Below are positions 7,924 to 32,195 of a stretch of DNA of 34,436 nucleotides, piece by piece. The stretch comes from a virus. The notes under the pieces are model-generated. The model worked only from the letters and a program-made list of their open reading frames with translations. It did not search any database and had not been told where the DNA came from. The stretch covers positions 1 to 34,436 of the IMG/VR virus record IMGVR_UViG_3300035034_001636; one strand, 5' to 3'. The translations under genes and the position numbers were made by a program. Position 1 is the stretch's first letter. Each line of letters begins with the position of its first letter.

Positions 7924-8109
7924 TTATATTTTTGAATTTATGACTATTACTGAAGTATTGCCTAGATGAAAATCTACTTCCATATCTTGGTCTTCAATAT
8001 TAAATAAGGTTTCTCTTCCTTTTGAACAGTTCATTCTCTCTTTATTAACCATTAGGTCGAAGTCAAAATCGAATAATGTTCTTCTTAATTCTTTAATTGT
8101 AGCTTTCAT
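7924..8109 (-). CDS. Small hypothetical protein
   Basis: 61 residues starting MKATIKELRRTLFDFDFD, with a C-terminus that looks like two short beta strands (MEVDFHLGNTSVIVINSKI). No family recognised. It is the first gene after a copy of the conserved promoter element at 8138-8178 and is followed after 11 bases by the thioredoxin-like gene, so the two probably form one short operon. Confidence 0.6.
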   Translation of the reverse strand: MKATIKELRRTLFDFDFDLMVNKERMNCSKGRETLFNIEDQDMEVDFHLGNTSVIVINSKI

Positions 8110-8137
8110 GATATATGTTTTAGTTTGTTTTATACTG

Positions 8138-8178
8138 CTAATTTACAGGATATTATTTAAACTAAAAAATATTTTATG
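8138..8178 (-). promoter_or_regulatory. Conserved phage promoter element, copy 1
   Basis: Minus-strand -7-like box TAAATTAG (8138-8145) with the shared upstream block AAAATATTTTTTAGTTT near 8158-8176, and a 5' UTR containing AAACTAAAACATATAT before the ATG at 8109. The same arrangement recurs upstream of several other minus-strand genes. The -7 box here is one of the weaker matches to TAnnTTTG. Confidence 0.55.
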
Positions 8179-8197
8179 ATTTATTTTAAAAAAAGTT

Positions 8198-9649
8198 TTA
8201 ATCCTCTTCTAAAGTAGATTGATTTTGAGCTTGTCTTGCAGCTATTTCTTGATCTATGTTTATGATCTCTTCATCAATGTCTTCTACTAGATCTAGCATA
8301 TTTATACCTGTTCTTCTACTTATTAAATTAGAGTCTATACCTTTAGATACATAGTTTATTTTCTCACTTATGTCAGACGGTAGAATAGAATTGAAGTGAA
8401 TATCATAATATAGTGATTGGCTTTCATTTCTAAGTCCTGTGTTAGTGGCATTTGTTATTCCAGATATTATTATATTTATACATCTCTCTATGAATACCTT
8501 CGTTGAATTTCTATGAAACTCTGATTTCAACTCTGTTGCTAAAAACATAAGCTTAACAGTTTTCTCTGCTACATTTCCAAGACTCTTAAGCTTCTCTAAA
8601 GATAGATTTGGAACTCCAGATCCATAAGCAATTGCTTCTTCGAGTTTATCTAATTCTAATTTGTTTGACTCAGGTGCTGTTTCTGCTTCTAAAAATCTAA
8701 CATTACCTTTGACTTCATTTCCAGCTTTGTCAAACTTTATTGGAATATTAAAGTGTTTGCCACTCTCTTCTTTAAGTGGCATGTTTGTCACAATACCTTC
8801 TGTGACTAAAATAGGATGGCCAGAGTAGTCATTCGCATCGCCTAATTTAGATAGAGCAACTTCATGTCTGTCTATTGGTGATGCTACTGTGTACCACTGA
8901 GGTTCTTTCTGTGAGTCATAGACTATTGGAATTCTATCAAAACCATGAGCCATTACACCATTTTGATCAGACAGTCTAAGTTCACCACTTTCATCATTTA
9001 GGTAGTATTTGTTTTTAATGTCCCATATCTCAACGTTGTTTATGTTTTTATCATCTGCATTTACTGAAACATATGACCACATAAAAAGAAGCATGTTATC
9101 TTCACCATCGAAGTATGGTGTCATTACGCCTTTTTCATTGTTAAGTACTTTTGCTTTTATTTCTTTTTTCTGTGCTGATAACCCAAGTTTTATAAGTATT
9201 CTATTTAACATAGAAGATTGATCGAGATCTTTTATGTAGAAATTCATAGCTACTTGTGTTTGACTCATCTTGATCACTGTAGACTGTAACAGTTTTGCAT
9301 CAATTCTATTTACTCTCCATATCTGTTTGACTAATTTAGATAGGTTGTTGTCTTCAGATGCTATCACTGATACGGGTTTACCTACTACAAATGTAGCGAG
9401 TGTTTCAACTATGTTCTGCGCATGGTTTAAATATATCTTAACCATCTTAGAGACTTTATTGTCTGCTAGTGATTTGTCAAGTTGAATTCTATCTACTTGA
9501 CCATCTCTTTGATTTCTACCAAAGTCTCTGTATTCTTTTATGTAGTTGTCTATTTTAGATACGTCTTTGCTTTTGAGTTTTATTTTCTCAATAGCAGATT
9601 TAGGATCTGTAGATAGTTGATCTGTTATGGCTTTTACAATATCATCCAT
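8198..9649 (-). CDS. Portal protein (SPP1 gp6-like)
   Basis: 483 residues, the usual portal size. After a helical N-terminus comes the portal-like pattern KMVKIYLNHAQNIVETLATF then VVGKPVSVIASEDN, typical of SPP1 gp6-family portals. Later segments include VTEGIVTNMPLKEESGK and the stem/crown-like region with LEKLKSLGNVAEKTVKLMF. The acidic, Gln-rich C-terminus (EIAARQAQNQSTLEED) is common in portals. It forms the ring through which DNA is packaged. It lies just downstream of terL, as expected. Confidence 0.85.
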   Translation of the reverse strand: MDDIVKAITDQLSTDPKSAIEKIKLKSKDVSKIDNYIKEYRDFGRNQRDGQVDRIQLDKSLADNKVSKMVKIYLNHAQNIVETLATFVVGKPVSVIASEDNNLSKLVKQIWRVNRIDAKLLQSTVIKMSQTQVAMNFYIKDLDQSSMLNRILIKLGLSAQKKEIKAKVLNNEKGVMTPYFDGEDNMLLFMWSYVSVNADDKNINNVEIWDIKNKYYLNDESGELRLSDQNGVMAHGFDRIPIVYDSQKEPQWYTVASPIDRHEVALSKLGDANDYSGHPILVTEGIVTNMPLKEESGKHFNIPIKFDKAGNEVKGNVRFLEAETAPESNKLELDKLEEAIAYGSGVPNLSLEKLKSLGNVAEKTVKLMFLATELKSEFHRNSTKVFIERCINIIISGITNATNTGLRNESQSLYYDIHFNSILPSDISEKINYVSKGIDSNLISRRTGINMLDLVEDIDEEIINIDQEIAARQAQNQSTLEED

Positions 9650-12304: not shown

Positions 12305-13053
12305 AAATAAAATTTATTTTTTGTAAATCTACTAATTTTTTCTGGAAACAATAAGAGAAACAAAGGAAACAATGATTGTTTCTCGGTAACTGTTTGGCTA
12401 TCAATTCTATAGGGTCGCCCGAGAAACAATAAAAAAAGCGCATTGTTTCTCATTTAACTGCTTGATTTTCAATAAACTAAAATGTTAATTTATGTTAAAA
12501 AGCATCCAGGGAAACAATAAAAAGGCAGCCTAACCCCCAGCGGCTCCTGGGCAATATACGCGTTTTAGGTAGTATATGGTAATTATCTATATTTTATAAT
12601 ATCAAAGGTTTTATACTTTTATTGTTTCCTTTGTTTCCAGAGCACCTAGGATCACTACCACCGTGACTTCGTTGGAGAAACAATCATTGTTTCTCTTTGT
12701 TTCCTTTGTTTCTCTGCTAAAAATGAGAAACCTCTGCATTACGTTGGTTATCAGTCAACTGCAGAGGTTTCGCAAGTAGCATCATGCAAACTAAAACAAG
12801 CTACCTGCCTAATTGCGAAAGTGTCGCAACATTAGATTTGCGAACTCTCTCATTTCAAAAAAGTAGTTGCGAGACTTTCGCATATGTACTTTTTGCCTGA
12901 AAAAATGTCGCATTTATTCTCATTTTTACTTATTTCTCTTAAAATTGTCTTTTTTAGAGTTAAAAACTCTTGTGCTTTTTGGTCTTATTTTTACACAAAA
13001 TAAGCATATTTTTTACACCTATTTTAGATCTCATTTATAGAGTTAAAAAATAG
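12305..13053. repeat. Non-coding region A: iterons, palindromes and hairpins (origin- or operator-like)
   Basis: No convincing gene. It contains many copies of GAAACAAT/ATTGTTTC. These include arms GAGAAACAAT and ATTGTTTCTC paired around a 10-base spacer near 12421-12452 and around one base near 12675-12695, plus tandem TTTGTTTCC repeats. An AT-rich core (TAATTATCTATATTTTATA, 12580-12598) leads into ATCAAAGG. A 12-bp stem GAAACCTCTGCA / TGCAGAGGTTTC spans 12727-12771. TTGCGA..TCGCAA (12813-12829) and TGCGA-GACTT-TCGCA (12868-12882) are small hairpins. The same elements in the same order occur at 31.8-32.2 kb. The tail (12900-13053) is AT-rich with a CTTATTTT/AAAATAAG stem at 12984-13004. Confidence 0.8.
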
Positions 13054-14506: not shown

Positions 14507-14737
14507 TTATTTATTTAAAAATGCTTTGATTATAGATCTACATTCTAAAACTTCAGACTCATTATTAAAAGTAGTCCAGTTTAAATAAGCTATAAGATCA
14601 ACAGTAGGAATAGCTTCAATGTTATTCTTGATCATGTTTGGTTTTGGTTGAAAATGCTTTACTCCATCTTGAATGTAGTTAAACTTAAAAGAACCAGAGT
14701 TAGAATTGTTTTTTACTACTTGAATTTGAGTTTTCAT
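14507..14737 (-). CDS. Small hypothetical protein, first gene after promoter copy 2
   Basis: 76 residues from ATG 14737 (MKTQIQVVKNNSNSGSFKF). A longer frame using TTG at 14767 would run through the -7 box, so it is rejected. The sequence is polar with an aromatic pair late on (YLNWTTF). The start lies about 28 bases downstream of the conserved TATATTTG box, with the same 5' UTR as copies 1 and 3. Function unknown. Confidence 0.55.
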   Translation of the reverse strand: MKTQIQVVKNNSNSGSFKFNYIQDGVKHFQPKPNMIKNNIEAIPTVDLIAYLNWTTFNNESEVLECRSIIKAFLNK

Positions 14738-14764
14738 AATATATGTTTTAGTTTGTTTGATACT

Positions 14765-14806
14765 CAAATATACACTTTATAAATGAAACTAAAAAATATT
14801 TTATGA
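14765..14806 (-). promoter_or_regulatory. Conserved phage promoter element, copy 2
   Basis: Minus-strand TATATTTG (14765-14772) is an exact TAnnTTTG -7 box. About 15-30 bases upstream lies AAATATTTTTTAGTTTC. Copy 3 near 16.57 kb is nearly identical over about 85 bases, including the 5' UTR TATCAAACAAACTAAAAC. Confidence 0.75.
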
Positions 14807-14824
14807 AAATAATTAAAAAAAGTT

Positions 14825-15091
14825 TTAATCTTCTTGGGGTTTCAGTTTTATAGATCTACAAGGAAAGCCTCTTGTCCATCTACTTGCTCGCATATTTTTA
14901 TTCTTAACTAGTAGTTCAAAAGTTAGGTGTATTGCTTCCATTGTTTTCATGTTCATAATTTGTGCACTACTAAATCGCCAGTCAATGACATCATACTCTT
15001 CAAATGGTGGTTCTTTCATACTGCTAAATAAGCCACCACCTAGTTGTTGTTTTGTACCTATTAAATGTCCTACTTCTATTGGAATTTCCAT
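14825..15091 (-). CDS. Small hypothetical protein
   Basis: 88 residues: MEIPIEVGHLIGTKQQLGGG, a Pro/Glu/Asp segment (MKEPPFEEYDVIDWRF), then a helix with HLTFELLVKNKN and a basic end (RASRWTRGFPCRSIKL). No family recognised. Its ATG lies about 36 bases after the T tract that ends the structured RNA on the same strand. Confidence 0.5.
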   Translation of the reverse strand: MEIPIEVGHLIGTKQQLGGGLFSSMKEPPFEEYDVIDWRFSSAQIMNMKTMEAIHLTFELLVKNKNMRASRWTRGFPCRSIKLKPQED

Positions 15092-15797: not shown

Positions 15798-15959
15798 TCA
15801 ATGTGTTTTTACTTCTTCGTCCCAATTTGGAAATCTTCTTATAAATAGTCTTACATCTGCCCTATATAGATCTAATGAAAGTCTTACTATAGATTTTGAG
15901 TGTAGCAGTGGTTTCCATTTTCTATTTAAAATATCGTGCTGCTCTTGTGCTTCTCTCAC
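15798..15959 (-). CDS. 53-residue protein, GTG start
   Basis: A short frame fills the gap between the DenV-type gene and the 81-residue gene. It starts with GTG in a 4-base GTGA overlap with the denV stop and ends TGA two bases before the next ATG, which is classic operon packing. Residues: VREAQEQHDILNRKWKPLL at the start, LYRADVRLFIRRFPNWDEE later. It is basic and amphipathic. No family recognised; the packing is the main evidence. Confidence 0.6.
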   Translation of the reverse strand: MREAQEQHDILNRKWKPLLHSKSIVRLSLDLYRADVRLFIRRFPNWDEEVKTH

Positions 15960-16369
15960 AGTTTCATAGTTTTTAGTTCAACTTTTTCACCTCTGTATCT
16001 TATCACTTTCATAGTAGAAAGCCTCTCGTTTATCCTTTCAACTAACATAGATCTTACTGTGTTATCAGGTTTCCAATCATTTAGAAGATCATCAGGAAGA
16101 TCATGGAAAGCATCGCTGTAGTCTTGAATAGAGAAACCTCTATCTTTACACTCAATGCGAATAGCAGTGTATCTTGTGTACAAATAATAAAGCTTATCAT
16201 AGAAGAACTTTACATGACCTGCACCTAATCTAAAATCATTAGGAATGTCTTCAACTTTTGCTTTTCCAGATATTATACAGTTTGGAATTCTTACTATTTC
16301 TCTGTGTTCAGCTAAAAGCATTTGATCACACAGTTCTGATGGTTGTATTGATGCACTTATTCTAGTCAT
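15956..16369 (-). CDS. denV: Pyrimidine-dimer DNA glycosylase (T4 endonuclease V / DenV family)
   Basis: 137 residues, the same size as T4 endonuclease V. The N-terminus MTRISASIQPSELCDQ matches the family, including Thr2, whose alpha-amino group is the nucleophile. LLAEHREIVRIPN places a Glu (E24) where T4 has catalytic E23, and LGAGHVKFFYDKLYYLY (residues 48-64) is the family's most conserved stretch. The enzyme removes UV-induced cyclobutane pyrimidine dimers and nicks the abasic site, repairing phage DNA. It lies in the same direction as the hypermodification genes and its stop overlaps the next start. Confidence 0.92.
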   Translation of the reverse strand: MTRISASIQPSELCDQMLLAEHREIVRIPNCIISGKAKVEDIPNDFRLGAGHVKFFYDKLYYLYTRYTAIRIECKDRGFSIQDYSDAFHDLPDDLLNDWKPDNTVRSMLVERINERLSTMKVIRYRGEKVELKTMKL

Positions 16370-16392: not shown

Positions 16393-16541
16393 TTATGAGT
16401 TTAGAACTATTAGGTTATTTCTTGAAGCATCTCTCAACAACCTTTCTCTATGTGTGCAAAGTTGTTGTGTAGTATAGCAGTTTGTTAAACCTAACTCTAG
16501 TAGTTCTTTTATTGTTTGCTTGTGTTTAAATTAATTGCCAT
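16393..16541 (-). CDS. Small protein possibly made by -1 ribosomal frameshifting
   Basis: An ATG at 16541, at the same distance from a conserved promoter as other first genes, opens a frame of only ten codons (MAINLNTSKQ, stop). That frame contains T-TTA-AAC (16530-16524), the classical -1 slippery heptamer in the right phase. After a -1 shift the frame continues for 43 protein-like residues (KELLELGLTNCYTTQQLC, then HRERLLRDASRNNL) to a TAA at 16393, just before denV. The total would be 49 residues. Alternatives: a frameshifted remnant, an assembly error, or a leader peptide. No strong downstream stimulator is seen. Confidence 0.4.
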
Positions 16542-16568
16542 AATATATGTTTTAGTTTGTTTGATACT

Positions 16569-16610
16569 CAAATATACACAGTATAAACGTAACTAAAAAA
16601 TATTTTATGA
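16569..16610 (-). promoter_or_regulatory. Conserved phage promoter element, copy 3
   Basis: Exact TATATTTG box on the minus strand (16569-16576), with AAATATTTTTTAGTTAC upstream and the same 5' UTR (TATCAAACAAACTAAAAC) as copy 2. It would drive the short frameshift candidate, denV and the small genes after it. Confidence 0.75.
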
Positions 16611-16628
16611 TTTATTTTAAAAAAAGTT

Positions 16629-17429
16629 TCATATCTCTACTTCTTTACCTGTTACAATCCTGTAGATCTCTCTAGTAAGCTTCACGTCATAGACGCCATT
16701 GTGCAGCATTACATCTTCTACATACAATCCTAATTCTTCAGCTACTGTCTTAAGTTTGAAGTTTGGCATTGACACTCTTCTTTCAATGAGGTATTCACAT
16801 GCTAAAACCATAACATCTAATGAGTCTCCCCAAAACCAAGAACCAAAATATGTATCTCCGTTTTGTTCAAACCATCTTCTTAAGAAAACATCATCAAACT
16901 TTCTGTTGTTAAACCCTACTAGATACATTTTATCTTTTCTATCGTATCTATCACAGTATCTCTCTAATATTGATACAAACTCAATATGAGCATCTTTCAT
17001 ATCTTGATATACAAGTATTTCATCTTCTAAAACATTACCTACTAGAAGAGCCTTAGGTTCAATTATTGCTTTTGGGTGTGGTCTTGTTTTAATGTCAAAT
17101 TCTTCTACTATTTCACCATTGAATTCTACAACACCAGCTATTTGGTGTATGCTGTTTTTACGTTCGTCAGTTCCAGTAGTTTCTAGATCATAAAATATTT
17201 TTATGATGTCGTCTCTTGTTTTGAATTTCATAGTTTGTATTTTTTCGTGTAGTTGTGGAAACATTTCCATGTATTTATTCATGTATCTTATTACATGGAT
17301 TGTGAATTTATGTTGAGGTACATCAATGAACTTTTCTTTGAGTCTAACAACAGCTACTCTATAGCCATTTGAGTGATCATAGAGTGTGTTGTTTTCTCTC
17401 GTGTATTTTCCTGACTCAATTAGTTTCAT
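16629..17429 (-). CDS. DnaQ-like 3'-5' exonuclease (DEDDh)
   Basis: 266 residues. The exonuclease begins near residue 67. Exo I is FYDLETTGTDE with D81 and E83. Exo II is VGFNNRKFDDVFL with D179 or D180. Exo III is HNGVYDVKL with H243 and D248, the H-x4-D spacing of the DEDDh class. That makes it a relative of DNA polymerase III epsilon and RNase T. The first 66 residues are an extra domain I do not recognise (RVAVVRLKEKFIDVPQHKF). It overlaps the thymidylate-synthase-like gene by 14 bases, so it belongs to the nucleotide/modification operon and could proofread or degrade host DNA. Confidence 0.85.
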   Translation of the reverse strand: MKLIESGKYTRENNTLYDHSNGYRVAVVRLKEKFIDVPQHKFTIHVIRYMNKYMEMFPQLHEKIQTMKFKTRDDIIKIFYDLETTGTDERKNSIHQIAGVVEFNGEIVEEFDIKTRPHPKAIIEPKALLVGNVLEDEILVYQDMKDAHIEFVSILERYCDRYDRKDKMYLVGFNNRKFDDVFLRRWFEQNGDTYFGSWFWGDSLDVMVLACEYLIERRVSMPNFKLKTVAEELGLYVEDVMLHNGVYDVKLTREIYRIVTGKEVEI

Positions 17430-18087
17430 TCCTGTTTAAAAAGTCATTATACAAGTGCAGATCTGCTGCATAGTGGAAGTATGTACCTGTTTTAAGTTTC
17501 ATCTCTTTTGCTACTAATTTATGCATCTCTGAGAAACAGTATTGATCATTGCAAAAACCAAACCATAGATCATTGGATCTCATCAGAACTGTCATATCTA
17601 GTTTTTCACCACAGTCTGAGACTTCAAAACCTATGTTAAGCGTACATGGTGTATCATGGCGATAGTCTTTCTTTTCTTTACCATCGAAAATGGAAAGCCA
17701 TGCATGTCTAGTCGTAGAGTCGTGTTGTAGCTGAGAAATACATTTTTCAATTTGGTTGTTTCTATTCCACTGCCACCCATAGTTACTGTTGACTATGTTG
17801 TCACCGTTGTGCATTATGTCCCAAATAGGTGCAAACTTTTTTAATTCTTCTACACTTCTATTTTGTGATAAGTACCAATCAAATTCTCTCTTAGCATACT
17901 TGTCATTCCAGTTTCTAAAAGGTGTTTCTATGTGATTGTCTTCTGGTTTCAAAATATAGAAACCTATATTTCTAAGTCTCTTAGTGCCATTTGCTCTTTG
18001 AGTGCCTTCTGAGTTTATCTTATTGTAAAAATAATCAAAGGCATCTTCTGCTGTGTGGAATGTGTTTATGTACGAATGTATGCTCAT
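17416..18087 (-). CDS. Thymidylate synthase superfamily: predicted deoxycytidylate (dCMP) hydroxymethylase
   Basis: 223 residues. SNYGWQW (101-107), DTPCTLNIGF with nucleophile C148, and MRSNDLWFGFCNDQYCF then AADLHLY follow the thymidylate synthase core. From R170 to Y213 it aligns without gaps to E. coli ThyA RSCDVFLGLPFNIASY...GGDTHLY. On that alignment, D181 replaces the Asn (N177) that selects uracil. The same Asn-to-Asp change marks cytosine-specific members such as T4 gp42. H211 and Y213 are kept. It would use methylene-tetrahydrofolate to make 5-hydroxymethyl-dCMP. A dUMP-type enzyme remains possible. It lies beside dUTPase-like, kinase and carbamoyltransferase genes. Confidence 0.8.
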   Translation of the reverse strand: MSIHSYINTFHTAEDAFDYFYNKINSEGTQRANGTKRLRNIGFYILKPEDNHIETPFRNWNDKYAKREFDWYLSQNRSVEELKKFAPIWDIMHNGDNIVNSNYGWQWNRNNQIEKCISQLQHDSTTRHAWLSIFDGKEKKDYRHDTPCTLNIGFEVSDCGEKLDMTVLMRSNDLWFGFCNDQYCFSEMHKLVAKEMKLKTGTYFHYAADLHLYNDFLNRNETN

Positions 18088-18089
18088 AT

Positions 18090-18557
18090 CTAATAACTTC
18101 TTTTTTGTCTGTTTCTGTTCTCTACATTTTTAGCCATGTAGTAGTTGTAAATAGTTTTTGAGTCTAACCCTAAAGACACAGCATAGTTCATAAAGAAATG
18201 TAGTTTGTCTACGAATTCCATTACAAGTTCTTTCTTATCATTTTCAGTGAGATCAGAGAGCTTCATTTGTGAAGCTTTCGGGTGGTCTTTCTTCCATGGC
18301 TTCCAAACAGCATTTCCAATGCCATCATTTATGCCACCTAATGCATCAAACATTTCATGGTCTTCATCGCCTTCTGCGTGTTTGTTCATCAACCAAAAAT
18401 TCTTTATGTCATTAAGTGACATAGTGTCAAAATCGTAGTTGTAAATCTTAGTCTGAGTATCTCTTTGAAGTTCTAAGATGTCACCTAGTGTATCTTTAGA
18501 GTCTTTAAATAGGTCTAGTATTTCTAAACCTGAACAAATGTTGTCTGTGTTTGCCAT
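18090..18557 (-). CDS. Dimeric dUTPase / dCTPase-like all-alpha NTP pyrophosphatase
   Basis: 155 residues, all helical. ILELQRDTQTKI, then HAEGDEDHEMFDALGG with clustered acidic residues, then MEFVDKLHFFMNYAVSLGL (E114, D117) and the end segment YYMAKNVENRNRQ (N144, R148) are the motif set of the dUTPase_2 family, related to MazG and T4 gp56. Such enzymes hydrolyse dUTP and, in T4, dCTP to the monophosphate. Here it would remove canonical dCTP/dUTP and supply monophosphate to the neighbouring hydroxymethylase. It is 2 bases from that gene and 3 from the upstream one. Confidence 0.82.
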   Translation of the reverse strand: MANTDNICSGLEILDLFKDSKDTLGDILELQRDTQTKIYNYDFDTMSLNDIKNFWLMNKHAEGDEDHEMFDALGGINDGIGNAVWKPWKKDHPKASQMKLSDLTENDKKELVMEFVDKLHFFMNYAVSLGLDSKTIYNYYMAKNVENRNRQKRSY

Positions 18558-18560
18558 CTT

Positions 18561-19124
18561 TTATTGTTTTACTATTAATTTTTCTATGTTTACTATGTTT
18601 TGTGCAGTAGAAGCTATCACATGTATTTGTGGCTGCTCACTGTACACTGGATCTATAAAAAACTCTTTTATGAGGTTTATGTCATATAACAATTCGTTTT
18701 TTATGTCAGACGCTCTAAAGAACAGTTTTACAGTGTCTTGAAAATAATGGATGATATTAAGACAACTCGTATTAACTGTATCATCCATGTAGTCTGAAAG
18801 TTTGTCAGCTATTACGACTACACATCTTCTGCTTTTGTCTTTGTTTCTTGAAACTGTTTCAATGATTGATCTAAAATCCATGTCGTTTTTCATCATAGCT
18901 GATACTGTATAAATAGTACCTATTAGATTTGACTGCTCTTCTACATTTGTGAAAGATTTTCTATGTAAGAAACCCTCCATTGATTTTATAGAAATGTCCA
19001 TGTTTGAAAAAGCTTTTCTTTTAGCAAACATGTAGCTGTCTTCTATTTGGTTTATCTGATCAGCTCTGTCTATTCTAAAATAGTAAGAGTCGTCATTGAA
19101 AAGAGGATATTTATATATATTCAT
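18561..19124 (-). CDS. Degenerate thymidylate-synthase-like protein
   Basis: 187 residues. The C-terminal half resembles the thymidylate synthase core: KSRRCVVVIADKL, then NTSCLNIIHYF with C121 in the nucleophile slot, then LFFRASDIKNELLYDINL, which fits the R-S-x-D-x3-G-x3-N pattern with D148 at the Asn177-equivalent position. The Gly is replaced by Glu, and the HLY motif near the end is replaced by IASTAQN, so catalysis as a normal synthase is doubtful. It sits between kinase and dUTPase-like genes. It may be a diverged paralogue of the 17.4-kb gene working as a partner subunit. The fold call is moderate. Confidence 0.5.
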   Translation of the reverse strand: MNIYKYPLFNDDSYYFRIDRADQINQIEDSYMFAKRKAFSNMDISIKSMEGFLHRKSFTNVEEQSNLIGTIYTVSAMMKNDMDFRSIIETVSRNKDKSRRCVVVIADKLSDYMDDTVNTSCLNIIHYFQDTVKLFFRASDIKNELLYDINLIKEFFIDPVYSEQPQIHVIASTAQNIVNIEKLIVKQ

Positions 19125-19126
19125 AA

Positions 19127-19588
19127 CTACATTATTTGAAACAACTGCATGAGTCTTGCCAAGTTGTTTGGATTTACTCTTATTTTATTCATAGAAACAG
19201 CATAAAATATAGCTTCGTACATCTTTCTAGCTGCTAATATTTGATCATATGAAAAAGCTTCATTTCTTTCACTGTCAAAAACGAAGTCTTCTTCTCTGTC
19301 AACGAGTATAAACAAACAGTTTTGACTTTCAAATATCTTTTGAAGTTCTACTGGATTTTTTACTCTGTGCTTTTGGTCTCTAAATAGACTGTATACCATT
19401 TCTGATACAAAGTTTCTATCAGAAATGGTTTTTTTAGGTGTTATATAGTGACTGTGAAAATCAAATTTCTCATCTGGTTTATCAAAGTGAATTATAGGCC
19501 ATCCTAAAGTTTGACTTAGTTTTTCACACAGCTGAGATTTACCTTGCTGATCTGCACCTTCTACTATTATCTTATCTATTTTTATCAT
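19127..19588 (-). CDS. P-loop deoxynucleoside-monophosphate kinase-like protein
   Basis: 153 residues. IIVEGADQQGKSQLCEKL carries the P-loop GADQQGKS at 11-18, and ISDRNFVSEMVYSLF (DR at 57-58) is the substrate/lid signature of thymidylate and deoxynucleoside kinases; LFILVDREEDF follows. It is shorter than typical thymidylate kinase (about 200). In phages with modified bases such kinases act on hydroxymethylated monophosphates (T4 gp1, a different fold) or on hydroxymethyluracil in DNA. The start lies 17 bases inside the end of the carbamoyltransferase gene, so translation is coupled. Confidence 0.75.
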   Translation of the reverse strand: MIKIDKIIVEGADQQGKSQLCEKLSQTLGWPIIHFDKPDEKFDFHSHYITPKKTISDRNFVSEMVYSLFRDQKHRVKNPVELQKIFESQNCLFILVDREEDFVFDSERNEAFSYDQILAARKMYEAIFYAVSMNKIRVNPNNLARLMQLFQIM

Positions 19589-21293
19589 CTAATATCAATA
19601 AATAGGTTTTCTGTTCTACGTCTTTTAGCTTTTGCTTTCTAAAATCAATAACAGCGTCTACACTAGAGCAAACTATGGGGTTGCCGTGAGTATTAAATGA
19701 AGTGTTTATCACACATAGACTGTTCACATTTTCTAGAATGCTAGAAATATTACTCTGTGAACACCTAGAAATAACTTGAGGTCTACCACTAAAGTTAGTA
19801 GTTTTTGGGTATTTATGCATAACGCCTCTGTACTCCATATGCTCAACAGCATCTTCATTAAAATCATCTGTTATTATCATGTATTCGTTTGATCTTATGA
19901 CTCTAGATCTATCTAAATGACTTCTAAATAAATCTATATAATTTTTCTCTAAAAGTACAGGCGCCATAGGCATTACTGTATTTCTACTATTGAGCATGTT
20001 TATATAATCTACATTCTCTTTAGTTGGTAAAGCTAATGTACTTGTGTTACATAAAGCTCTTGGGCCAAATTCTAAATCTCCTTGTATGATATTAACTACC
20101 TTATCTTCGTTGATTAATTGAGCTACTTTAGAGATAAACTCATTAGGTTCAGTAAAATGCATAATTCTAGAGTCTTCTACTTTGTGGTCTAATGATCTCA
20201 CACCGTAGCACAGATCAAAGAACTTAAAATCGCCTATGTATTTTTGGTACATTCCAATTGCTGCACCTTGATCACCAGAAAGAGGCATTACACATATGTC
20301 ACCTTCTATGGTTTTCTTTATTGCATTATTGAGTTTCACATTGTAGAAACAACCGCCAGAGAGAACTATGTTTTTGACATTTAAACTTGATATGAGCTTA
20401 GTCATTATGTTTTCTACACAGTACTGAATGTAGTAACCTATTATGTGTCTTTTGAGATGATTTATTATCTCTTCTGAGCCACTCTGAAGTGTTTTCATAA
20501 CGTTGTCAAACTGTATATTGAATATAGATTCAGCAGTCATTAGAGCTTCTACATCAATGTAGCCTTCGTGTGTTTTCTCCTTCTTCTGTTTAAATATACC
20601 TAGTATTTTCAAATAGTTTTCTATATAAGTGTCAGCTAACTCTTCTATTGTTCTAAGTTGCTGCCTAGAAATATAATCTAGAATGTGAGCTTCATAACCT
20701 AGAAACTTATATTCATCTTGATTTTCTTTCATACCACAGTAAGAACATGCATACTGGTACATCAAACCCATAGAGTTCATGTAGTCATAGTATCTGCTTT
20801 GTAGTTCTAGTTTTCCAGTCTTTGTGTTGTATCTATAGAAAGACATCACCTCTTCGTTGTTACCAAAACCATCTGCTACTAAGAAATGAAAGTCACCTAG
20901 GTTTTTTCTCTCTACTTTTTCTAAGATAAAAGCTAAACTAGAGTAAGCGTGAGCGTCATGATGAGTGAAGTTCTCTGAGAGGTTTACGATTTTCATATCA
21001 TACTTCTTACATAGATTGTTTATGTAAAAATGGTTGAAATACTTATCTGGAAATGAAGATTGATCAAAATTATCAAACCAGTGTGAAATAAATATTCTAG
21101 CTCCGTAAAGCTGAGAGTCGTCTATGTTTTCTATGATCTTATTTATAGAAGACGAAGGAAATGAAGAGTCAGATTTTTTAAGCGTTAGTCTCTCTTCTTC
21201 ATAACCTACTGGCTTGTCTATGCCGTTGAAAAATACAGCACTCGAATTGTGCCCCAATGTAATCATTAAGGCACATTTGTTTTGTTCTTGCAT
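19572..21293 (-). CDS. NodU/CmcH-family carbamoyltransferase
   Basis: 573 residues, full length for the family. GHNSSAVFF (14-22), YEEERLTLKK, HHDAHAYSS (111-119, metal and adenylate site), LSGGCFYNVKLN (311-322), SGDQGAAIG (339-347), EFGPRAL (408-414) and MPMAPVLL (441-448) come in the expected order: Kae1-like domain, then the C-terminal carbamoyl-transfer domain. One departure is CNTST after EFGPRAL, where GNRSI is usual. These enzymes make carbamoyl-adenylate from carbamoyl phosphate and ATP and put the carbamoyl group on a hydroxyl. Next to a hydroxymethylase, the likely acceptor is hydroxymethylated pyrimidine in DNA. Confidence 0.93.
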   Translation of the reverse strand: MQEQNKCALMITLGHNSSAVFFNGIDKPVGYEEERLTLKKSDSSFPSSSINKIIENIDDSQLYGARIFISHWFDNFDQSSFPDKYFNHFYINNLCKKYDMKIVNLSENFTHHDAHAYSSLAFILEKVERKNLGDFHFLVADGFGNNEEVMSFYRYNTKTGKLELQSRYYDYMNSMGLMYQYACSYCGMKENQDEYKFLGYEAHILDYISRQQLRTIEELADTYIENYLKILGIFKQKKEKTHEGYIDVEALMTAESIFNIQFDNVMKTLQSGSEEIINHLKRHIIGYYIQYCVENIMTKLISSLNVKNIVLSGGCFYNVKLNNAIKKTIEGDICVMPLSGDQGAAIGMYQKYIGDFKFFDLCYGVRSLDHKVEDSRIMHFTEPNEFISKVAQLINEDKVVNIIQGDLEFGPRALCNTSTLALPTKENVDYINMLNSRNTVMPMAPVLLEKNYIDLFRSHLDRSRVIRSNEYMIITDDFNEDAVEHMEYRGVMHKYPKTTNFSGRPQVISRCSQSNISSILENVNSLCVINTSFNTHGNPIVCSSVDAVIDFRKQKLKDVEQKTYLLILDDKNR

Positions 21294-28885: not shown

Positions 28886-28904
28886 GTGATGCTTGCTTGT
28901 TTTG

Positions 28905-28991
28905 TGAAAAAGAAAGGACTCGAACCTCTAACCTTAGTATCATGTTTTAATGATTGCAATCCCACGCTCTAGCCAATTGAGCTACTTTTCC
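28905..28991 (-). tRNA. tRNA-like gene with an unusual middle (possible Cys, GCA)
   Basis: Reading the minus strand, the acceptor arms GGAAAAG / CTTTTTC, the D arm GCTC-AATTGGCTA-GAGC and the T arm AGAGG-TTCGAGT-CCTTT are all well formed, with discriminator A and no encoded CCA. The 35 bases between D and T arms are not normal. TTGCAAT looks like a GCA (Cys) anticodon loop, but its stem TGGGA/CATTA pairs poorly, and an extra ATCAT-TAAAAC-ATGAT hairpin follows. Total length is 87. It is either a diverged, long-variable-arm tRNA or a decaying one. Confidence 0.65.
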
Positions 28992-31741: not shown

Positions 31742-31785
31742 ACAAAAGTGAAAAACATTTTGAAATATAAAAAATATTTTATGAA
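31742..31785 (-). promoter_or_regulatory. Conserved promoter-like element, copy 6
   Basis: The upstream block CATAAAATATTTTTTA is identical to that in copies 1-3; the -7 region CACTTTTG is only a partial match to TAnnTTTG. It lies directly upstream of the XRE-type gene. Confidence 0.4.
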
Positions 31786-31811
31786 AAAAATTAAAAAAAT
31801 TTAATATAAAC

Positions 31812-32195
31812 AGAGAAACAATAGAAAATATGTATTGTTTCTCATTCAACATGTTACATTTCAAACAGTTGCAGCTCAAAAAGTATGCCGGGAAACAAAG
31901 GAAACAATAAATCCAGGACACCCTATAGCGCGTTTATACGTTTCTGGTAGTAATTATCTATATTTTATACTATCAAAGGTTTTAGATATTTATTGTTTCC
32001 TTTGTTTCCAGAGCATGTTAGAGTAGTCACGTACTACTACAGAGAGAGAAACAATCATTGTTTCTCTTTGTTTCCTTTGTTTCCTAAAAGCTACTTTTTA
32101 TGTTTTTAGGGTTGCAGAACTCTCTCATTGCGAGACTTTCGCATGTTTTATTTCTGCAGAACTCTCTCATTGCGAGACTTTCGCAAAACATTTTA
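31812..32195. repeat. Non-coding region B: second copy of the iteron/palindrome/hairpin array
   Basis: No gene. The order of elements matches region A: GAGAAACAAT..ATTGTTTCTC hairpin (31813-31844); GGGAAACAAAGGAAACAAT; the AT-rich core TAATTATCTATATTTTATA then CTATCAAAGGTTTTA; TTTATTGTTTCC then TTTGTTTCCAGAGCA; a nearly identical block of about 35 bases with both palindrome arms (32047-32082); then TGCGA-GACTT-TCGCA hairpins, here twice. It lies between the XRE-type regulator and an unknown early gene, about 19 kb from region A. Confidence 0.8.
32113..32185. repeat. Perfect 31-base direct repeat with hairpins inside region B
   Basis: Two identical 31-base units (32113-32143 and 32155-32185) begin TGCAGAACTCTCTCATT and end in the hairpin TGCGA-GACTT-TCGCA. 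Period is 42 bases. Region A carries one diverged copy in which AACTCTCTCATT and the hairpin are separated by extra bases. Confidence 0.9.

Follow-up and report, generated by a model that had tools for sequence, protein, structure and literature searches.

Does the gene cluster at positions 17416 to 21293 of a viral contig specify a modified cytosine in phage DNA, and why does it encode a second, incomplete synthase-like protein beside an intact synthase? We analyzed the cluster within the window, the whole stretch of 34,436 nucleotides that makes up IMG/VR record IMGVR_UViG_3300035034_001636. The original prediction, made from the sequence alone, placed five adjacent genes of a base hypermodification route here, and all five open reading frames are present as a tightly packed minus-strand operon. 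These genes and one neighbor are listed below.

CT, 19572..21293, minus strand: NodU/CmcH-type O-carbamoyltransferase, 573 amino acids; predicted 5-hydroxymethylcytosine carbamoyltransferase.
Kinase, 19127..19588, minus strand: P-loop deoxynucleotide monophosphate kinase, 153 amino acids; predicted hydroxymethyl-dCMP (hm-dCMP) kinase.
TS-B, 18561..19124, minus strand: thymidylate-synthase fold without the catalytic Glu, 187 amino acids; predicted non-catalytic partner subunit.
gp56-like dCTPase/dUTPase, 18090..18557, minus strand: all-alpha T4 gp56 homologue, 155 amino acids.
TS-A, 17416..18087, minus strand: dCMP hydroxymethylase, 223 amino acids; active site complete, with Asp177 and Thr147.
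DnaQ-like exonuclease, 16629..17429, minus strand: matches to Pfam RNase_T (1.7e-9) and phrog_192 (DNA polymerase exonuclease subunit; 1.5e-28).

From CT through the kinase, TS-B, and the gp56-like gene to TS-A, successive genes are spaced by -17, 2, 3, and 2 bases, the first value being the overlap of the kinase with the end of CT. The exonuclease gene overlaps TS-A by 14 bases and is likely a co-transcribed neighbor; it has no known modification role. Operons of a similar kind that join a CT, a kinase, and a synthase occur in dozens of phages, Xanthomonas phage Xp15 and Bacteroides phage BF503P2 among them. In the neighborhoods of viral contigs, the order CT-kinase-partner-dUTPase-synthase or a close variant was found at about 20 CT loci, and a parallel order, CT-MazG-kinase-synthase-dCMP deaminase, at about 25. 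With related, identically ordered sets found in many viral contigs, the five-gene set is far beyond chance.

The original prediction named a dUTPase/dCTPase-like enzyme. In a tblastn search of phages, the product of 18090-18557 matched RB32 gp56 and other T4-like dCTP pyrophosphatases (34.5% identity over 97% of its length; E = 5e-19), and it matched phrog_173 at 3.5e-13. The adjacent gene, read as deoxynucleotide kinase-like, encodes a P-loop and a DR motif, and an alignment of its family has invariant G11, G16-K17, D57-R58, and S62. Its predicted structure (AF2 pLDDT 86) has a TMK/dNK fold of the YorR/thymidylate-kinase group, with Foldseek matches to YorR (3e-6) and to deoxyadenosine and thymidylate kinases (4e-5). 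Searching the PDB by sequence returned chance matches only for both proteins. We concluded that both assignments hold.

TS-A matches Pfam Thymidylat_synt (PF00303; 3e-21). Its best PDB matches are the MilA CMP hydroxymethylase and the T4 dCMP hydroxymethylase (5jnh, 1b49, and 5b6d; ~1e-14), and thymidylate synthase structures match less well (2.5e-7 and weaker). The nearest solved structures are thus pyrimidine hydroxymethylases and not thymidylate synthases. The T4 dCMP hydroxymethylase requires Cys148 and Asp179, has Glu60 as its conserved catalytic Glu, and receives Arg123'/Arg124' from the other protomer (PMC6400193). The active-site residues of TS-A are E68, W89, Y103, C148, R170, D173, D181, H211, and Y213; they include the nucleophilic Cys (C148), the catalytic Glu (E68), and an Asp at the 177/179 position (D181). 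TS-A therefore has, besides Cys148, the “cytosine-type residue” attributed to it, an Asp at E. coli position 177, and this complete dCMP-type active site is common to 80 of 80 aligned relatives.

The gene at the head of the operon had been assigned to the NodU/CmcH carbamoyltransferases, and CT has the two-domain architecture of that family across its full length. Carbam_trans_C (PF16861; 2e-28) and Carbam_trans_N (PF02543; 2e-15) both scored above the Pfam thresholds, and phrog_1601 matched at 2e-60. CT is 33.8% identical over 551 amino acids to the validated 5hmC carbamoyltransferase of Yang et al. 2021, eLife (PMC8670742; E = 2e-85, 269 bits), whereas it scored 84 bits against the NodU model and 43 bits against TobZ. 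That paper flags three differential positions, occupied in TobZ by W408/G421/R423; CT has I402, C415, and T417 there, the same residues as the validated enzyme. For this mapping, the 3ven numbering was taken to be shifted by a 6-residue tag, an offset that places the W, G, and R exactly. According to the same paper, the validated enzyme uses 5hmdC and 5hmdCTP, not 5hmdUTP, and double-stranded DNA is a poorer substrate for it than single-stranded DNA or free nucleotide. We considered 5hmU as the modified base and ruled it out: since TS-A has Asp177/Thr147 and the validated relative of CT is inactive on 5hmdUTP, the base is cytosine rather than uracil.

With gene identities and active-site residues established, a route can be proposed that agrees with the hypermodification route first suggested. 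The gp56-like enzyme would convert dCTP (and dUTP) to dCMP (dUMP), excluding plain C from DNA; TS-A would add a hydroxymethyl group from methylene-tetrahydrofolate to dCMP; the kinase, and then host NDP kinase, would raise hm-dCMP to hm-dCTP; and CT, using carbamoyl phosphate and ATP, would carbamoylate the hydroxyl, on hm-dCTP or on replicated DNA. We infer each of these reactions in this phage and the extent of replacement. Judging from the genes, the phage very probably replaces the cytosine of its DNA with a carbamoyl-capped form, predicted to be 5-carbamoyloxymethyl-dC (5cmdC). The carbamoylated DNA would resist restriction, and protection, as originally proposed, is a plausible candidate function.

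The product might instead remain 5-hydroxymethyl-dC, or modification might be partial, if CT were inactive or targeted few bases. CT activity in this phage is a prediction from sequence, and the substrate preference of the validated enzyme would fit such an outcome, but CT retains intact N-terminal motifs (H15, H111/H112/H115, D141, and D341) that do not vary among relatives, and we regard this outcome as improbable. That CT acts on a host surface sugar, in the style of a nodulation factor, or on tRNA, with the nucleotide genes adjoining by chance, is very improbable: the fold family is broad and includes distantly similar cyanophage “Nol-like” carbamoyltransferases, but the nearest characterized relative works on 5hmdC and 5hmdCTP (PMC8670742), CT agrees with it at the three flagged positions, and a dCMP-type synthase adjoins nearly every CT locus recovered in the clade of the window CT. 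We retained 5cmdC as the predicted product.

How much of this is new can be judged against known systems. The enzyme, its 5cmdC product, and the co-occurrence with a synthase are already described in Yang et al. 2021, eLife (PMC8670742), and 5cmdC is thus a published kind of modification. As in the phage contigs considered there, a NodU-type carbamoyltransferase adjoins an Asp177 thymidylate-synthase homologue, and the window CT, at 34% identity, shares the signature residues. Unlike the pathway there, the window has a T4 gp56-like dCTPase rather than MazG, and it adds a neighboring kinase as well as a Glu58-less partner with a synthase fold, for which the consulted parts of that paper showed no counterpart. 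The arrangement was said to mirror T4 gp56-gp42-gp1, and the window indeed has a gp56 homologue, a dCMP hydroxymethylase of the gp42/MilA group, and a dNMP kinase. It differs from the T4 pathway for hydroxymethylcytosine in having a carbamoyltransferase instead of glucosyltransferases, in having TS-B, and in a kinase whose fold is nearest YorR/thymidylate kinase.

Two cultivable phages also carry such operons. Like the window, Xp15 (CT-MazG-kinase-TS-dCMP deaminase) has a CT (35% identical to the window CT), an Asp177 synthase, a kinase, and an upstream helicase, but it has MazG in place of gp56, a dCMP deaminase, and no synthase-fold partner. BF503P2 (OP172671) has the order CT-kinase-partner-dUTPase-TS, with CT (annotated “hypothetical”), TS-A, and helicase 40%, 57%, and 63% identical to those of the window. 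Its dUTPase, however, is trimeric, its kinase is of another family, and its partner protein, annotated as an active dCMP hydroxymethylase, is a synthase homologue of greater length (Glu58 to Leu, W80 to Tyr). The original prediction considered this gene set in a Bacteroidota phage worth testing; the operon itself was confirmed, but it is no first case, given the same operon type in a Bacteroides isolate. TS-B appears to be the new part of the operon, the chemistry itself being already known.

TS-B had been described as a degenerate synthase-like partner. It has no meaningful match in Pfam, NCBIfam, or PHROG and none in the PDB by sequence, with a single or a profile query. Its predicted structure (AF2 pLDDT 89, pTM 0.87) is a thymidylate-synthase fold, with Foldseek matches between 5e-8 and 4e-7 (ThyA, 5e-8; T4 gp42, 3e-7; MilA, TMq up to 0.70). 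Reciprocal profile matches to full synthases are weak (2.6e-5 and 1.2e-4), and hhalign gave an E value of 4e-4. Invariant Tyr72, Arg100, Cys121, Arg137, Asp140, and Asp148 correspond to synthase Y94, R127, C146, R166, D169, and D177. At the position of the catalytic Glu58/60, all members have an invariant Lys35, and an invariant Glu144 occupies the position of synthase Gly173. In the 11-sequence alignment, 20 positions are invariant, many at nucleotide-contacting residues. The catalytic Glu is lost, but TS-B is a conserved protein family rather than a decaying gene.

We recovered this family from IMG/VR with the family alignment as query; a single TS-B sequence found only a near-identical sister contig, and a search of 50,697 isolate-phage records with one family member found no relative. 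TS-B is present in 14 distinct viruses, after the kinase or CT, and CT and a D177-type synthase are present in 14 of 14 (in one, L099, the synthase frame ends at the contig limit, with the Glu58 position outside it). Apart from this truncated frame, each virus thus pairs TS-B, which lacks a catalytic residue, with an intact paralogue, as for a prozyme. Neither TS-B nor CT was found at TS-A-type loci of other viruses (0 of 79), nor TS-B in CT genomes of other types (0 of 30). This co-occurrence is strict in one direction: the Xp15-like (type-1) operons have the full set without any TS-B-like partner, and the CT nearest to that of the window (50% identity) lies in a 24-kb contig, L088, without TS-B. 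TS-B is therefore not always required by the pathway.

Two more lineages lacking Glu58 sit after the kinase in other CT operons, one with Met, Leu, or Ile at that position and the other with Gln. In some contigs with the Gln-type partner, which may be fragments, no intact Asp177 synthase was seen. A quick tree placed the Glu58-less partners in three clades, but three independent origins could not be maintained: a single origin was compatible with the AU tests (p = 0.31 to 0.33).

We propose that TS-B serves the hydroxymethyl-dCMP machinery as a prozyme-like subunit without catalytic activity of its own, a role for which we consider the case evenly balanced; the explanation as a whole, a 5cmdC operon with a non-catalytic TS-B, is probable. 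Having lost the catalytic glutamate, TS-B would retain the cytosine-nucleotide pocket and the two partner-reaching arginines of the family. It would most likely form a heteromer with TS-A, the kinase, or both, and may activate the enzyme or hand on hm-dCMP. Trypanosomatid AdoMetDC and deoxyhypusine synthase similarly retain a dead paralogue alongside the active enzyme (PMC3663545), but in another fold and organism, and with activation proven there and only proposed for TS-B.

TS-B could instead be catalytically active, acting on a cytosine nucleotide by an altered, folate-independent mechanism in which Cys121 adds to C6, the Asp177 equivalent reads cytosine, and the new Lys and Glu stand in for the folate machinery. 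The invariance of Lys35 and Glu144 and the retained nucleophile leave room for such a role: Cys121, Asp148, Arg100, and Arg137 are invariant in a family that diverges to about 30% identity, and so strictly kept a nucleophile is unusual in a pure scaffold. Against this, the type-1 operons and L088 have a full hydroxymethyl-carbamoyl gene set without TS-B, with no step apparently missing, and the other partner lineages lost Glu58 differently, which suggests loss of activity rather than one common new reaction. We consider an active TS-B unlikely. That it is a decaying hydroxymethylase duplicate heading for loss is scarcely credible: the short length of TS-B, its missing catalytic Glu, and its absence from L088 would fit, but its open frame, its invariant positions, and its synteny are conserved, and the family groups as a separate clade (SH-aLRT support 100%).

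If the non-catalytic reading is correct, TS-B would be, as far as we found, the first subunit of prozyme type put forward for an enzyme of the thymidylate synthase family. This Glu58-less protein, which Pfam and PHROGs do not detect and which is retained solely alongside the 5cmdC pathway, would then bear on how phage dNTP pools are driven to full base replacement. To our knowledge, a metagenomic enzyme has produced 5cmdC in vitro, and no isolated phage has been shown to contain it in its DNA; no report of it was found in the open-access literature searched. Operons of this kind are present in Bacteroides fragilis phages that can be cultured (BF503P2 and relatives) and in Xp15, where the prediction is testable.

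A further idea, to which we give very little weight, is that the TS-B Cys attacks C6 of a carbamoylated hm-dC nucleotide, the carbamate leaves, and another nucleophile adds to the exocyclic methylene. 5cmdC would then be an intermediate toward further cytosine hypermodification, a counterpart of the pyrophosphate route to hypermodified thymidine. Separately, we dropped an argument for a heterodimer from paired arginines (His at position 127 in the window TS-A, Arg-Arg in TS-B), since position 127 varies freely among 80 TS-A relatives (Q in 42, R in 27, K in 6, and H in 5).

The five-gene operon claimed in the original prediction was confirmed. Its genes are consecutive on the minus strand, each either a few bases from the next or slightly overlapping it:

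17416-18087, minus strand, dCMP hydroxymethylase (TS-A)
18090-18557, minus strand, homologue of T4 gp56 (dCTPase/dUTPase)
18561-19124, minus strand, synthase-fold protein without the catalytic Glu (TS-B)
19127-19588, minus strand, P-loop dNMP kinase
19572-21293, minus strand, NodU/CmcH carbamoyltransferase (CT)

Phage genes surround the operon (SNF2-type helicase, VapE-like primase/helicase, DNA polymerase A, terminase, portal and capsid), and the window, an IMG/VR virus record of 34,436 bases, matches another IMG/VR contig of this virus at 99.93% identity across 19.6 kb.

Both halves of the NodU/CmcH family were found in CT with Pfam. CT shares 33.8% identity across 551 residues (E 2e-85) with a validated enzyme (PMC8670742); the bit score of this match is 269, versus 84 for NodU and 43 for TobZ. 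According to Yang et al. (2021, PMC8670742), the expressed enzyme converts 5hmdC and 5hmdCTP to 5-carbamoyloxymethylcytosine but does not use 5hmdUTP or 5mdCTP; the same paper names TobZ W408, G421 and R423 as the positions that most strongly set modified-DNA carbamoyltransferases apart from the rest. At these positions, mapped on the inference that the PDB chain numbering is shifted by 6 (the letters W, G and R then fall exactly), the window CT has Ile, Cys and Thr, as does the validated enzyme.

TS-A has Glu68, Trp89, Tyr103, Cys148, Arg170, Asp173, His211 and Tyr213, with Thr at 147 and Asp181 at the E. coli thymidylate synthase 177 position (E. coli numbering is used below for positions such as Glu58 and Asp177). 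Its active-site residues are common to all 80 aligned group members, and its nearest solved structures are MilA and T4 dCMP hydroxymethylase (~1e-14), well above thymidylate synthases. The gp56-like protein is 34.5% identical to T4-type gp56 over 97% of its length, and the kinase contains a P-loop and a DR motif, its predicted fold resembling those of YorR and thymidylate kinase. Given these identities, the set matches T4 gp56-gp42-gp1 with carbamoylation replacing glucosylation, as had been proposed. A pathway to 5-carbamoyloxymethyl-dC is a prediction well supported by homology.

TS-B had no sequence match in Pfam, PHROG, NCBIfam or the PDB. Its AlphaFold2 model (pLDDT 89, pTM 0.87) matched thymidylate synthases, MilA and T4 dCMP hydroxymethylase (E 5e-8 to 4e-7; TM-score to MilA up to 0.70, query-length normalised) and viral synthases (E down to 1.4e-9). 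Weak reciprocal profile matches linked the TS-B profile to a full synthase (2.6e-5) and the synthase profile to TS-B (1.2e-4); profile-profile comparison gave E 4e-4. The family comprises 14 distinct viruses (the window, L089, L090, L091, L092, L097, L099, L100, L101, L103, L104, L105, L156 and L178), all of which carry CT and an Asp177-type synthase homologue; the synthase lies elsewhere in the 179-kb genome of L104, and its frame is truncated in the L099 contig. Neither TS-B nor CT was found in 79 TS-A-type loci of other viruses (30 of these >12 kb), and TS-B was absent from 30 other CT genomes and 50,697 isolate phage records. Among 84,980 prokaryote genomes scanned, only L178 (JAIPJN010000016.1) had TS-B. 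Binned as Patescibacteria, it carries CT, kinase, TS-B, synthase and deaminase, and is probably a phage contig. In three members, the kinase gene immediately preceding TS-B also encodes, at the C-terminal end, a fused domain of the uracil-DNA-glycosylase superfamily (PF03167), which may serve in base editing or proofreading connected with the modified cytosine:

L099, 10149-11423, kinase-PF03167 fusion (PF03167 8e-11)
L104, 9912-11225, kinase-PF03167 fusion (PF03167 1e-8)
L092, 6670-7944, kinase-PF03167 fusion (PF03167 4e-7)

Tyr94, Arg127, Cys146, Arg166, Asp169 and Asp177 are invariant in TS-B, and Arg126 is nearly so. Glu58 is replaced by invariant Lys35, a mapping from sequence alignment with conserved Tyr-x3-Glu/Lys spacing rather than residue-by-residue structural alignment, and Gly173 by invariant Glu144; placement of the C-terminal ribose-contacting His/Tyr pair is uncertain. 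T4 dCMP hydroxymethylase cannot do without Cys148 and Asp179; its Glu60 (equivalent to Glu58) is the conserved folate activator, and phosphate is bound by Arg123/Arg124 of the opposite protomer (PMC6400193); MilA active sites are likewise shared across the dimer (PMC5175136). Judged by these roles, TS-B retains the residues required for cytosine-nucleotide binding and for supplying arginines to a partner subunit, and has lost those required for folate activation.

Two other types of synthase homologue lacking Glu58 adjoin the kinase within CT loci, as far as sampled. The longer type follows the kinase in Bacteroides phage BF503P2 (L001, OP172671.1), L109, L110, L112, L113, L114, L171 and L174; in the members tabulated, Glu58 aligns to Met, Leu or Ile, W80 is Tyr and D169 is mostly Asn. 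A Glu58-to-Gln, D169-to-Glu partner follows the kinase in L094, L095, L096, L116 and L143. Neither type co-occurred with TS-B in the genomes tested. An intact Asp177 synthase is absent from the contigs of some Glu58-to-Gln phages, including L095 and L096, which have an ordinary ThyA with Asn177; the L143 genome does have one. In the L094, L095, L096 and L098 contigs, the Glu58-to-Gln, Asp169-to-Glu homologue stands before CT. GenBank labels both BF503P2 homologues dCMP hydroxymethylase; for BF503P2_00036 (L001 10456-11262; OP172671.1 34973-35779), which lacks a Glu58 equivalent, the active-site residues make that label doubtful.

We favour a reading by analogy with trypanosomatid prozymes, dead paralogues that activate their partners (PMC3663545): TS-B would be a non-catalytic subunit that binds either TS-A or the kinase. 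Counting against a partner role, TS-B is missing between kinase and dUTPase in L088, the nearest relative by CT, and from Xp15-like operons, and some Glu58-to-Gln phages have no intact Asp177 synthase in the contig. Since the nucleophilic Cys is retained, it is possible that TS-B instead has an altered catalytic role.

The neighbourhood survey suggested with the original prediction covered 60 IMG/VR loci with the window's CT clade, mapped with profiles built in the present analysis; a synthase homologue of the Asp177 type is present in almost every one. About 25, including Xp15 and Acinetobacter phages, have the order CT-MazG-kinase-synthase-dCMP deaminase with a single synthase each. Further loci, BF503P2 among them, read CT-kinase-synthase-like partner-dUTPase-synthase; a smaller group has kinase-partner-CT, and in a few loci a short synthase is encoded upstream of CT. 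The layout was already known in outline, since Yang et al. (2021, PMC8670742) report CT together with synthase, pyrophosphohydrolase and deaminase domains; the modification itself and the CT-synthase pairing are already published. The gp56-type version and the conserved Glu58-less partners are undescribed in the published, largely open-access papers searched. The partners, more than the gp56-type operon, are the main novelty.

The module's closest relatives are Bacteroides phages, and the longest terminase matches are to Bacteroides and Phocaeicola phages (~32% identity); both fit the Bacteroidota host guessed originally. A ~91-base dispersed repeat (8108-8198, 14735-14825 and 16539-16629; partial copy 31757-31802) sits directly after minus-strand stop codons and contains, in the minus-strand reading, TATATTTG, which we take to be compatible with the Bacteroidota -7 element TAnnTTTG. 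A T4 denV-like pyrimidine-dimer DNA glycosylase is encoded at 15956-16369 (Pfam Pyr_excise 3e-12; phrog_1183 8e-34), and a tRNA gene (28904-28991; Rfam 47.8 bits), with an odd two-base anticodon according to ARAGORN, is located immediately upstream of the DNA polymerase gene. Two regions ~19.4 kb apart, 12332-12727 and 31813-32015, have direct repeats D3 and D4 in common; the first additionally carries a GTTTCTC/GAGAAAC-type inverted repeat, and this is perhaps an origin or packaging element.
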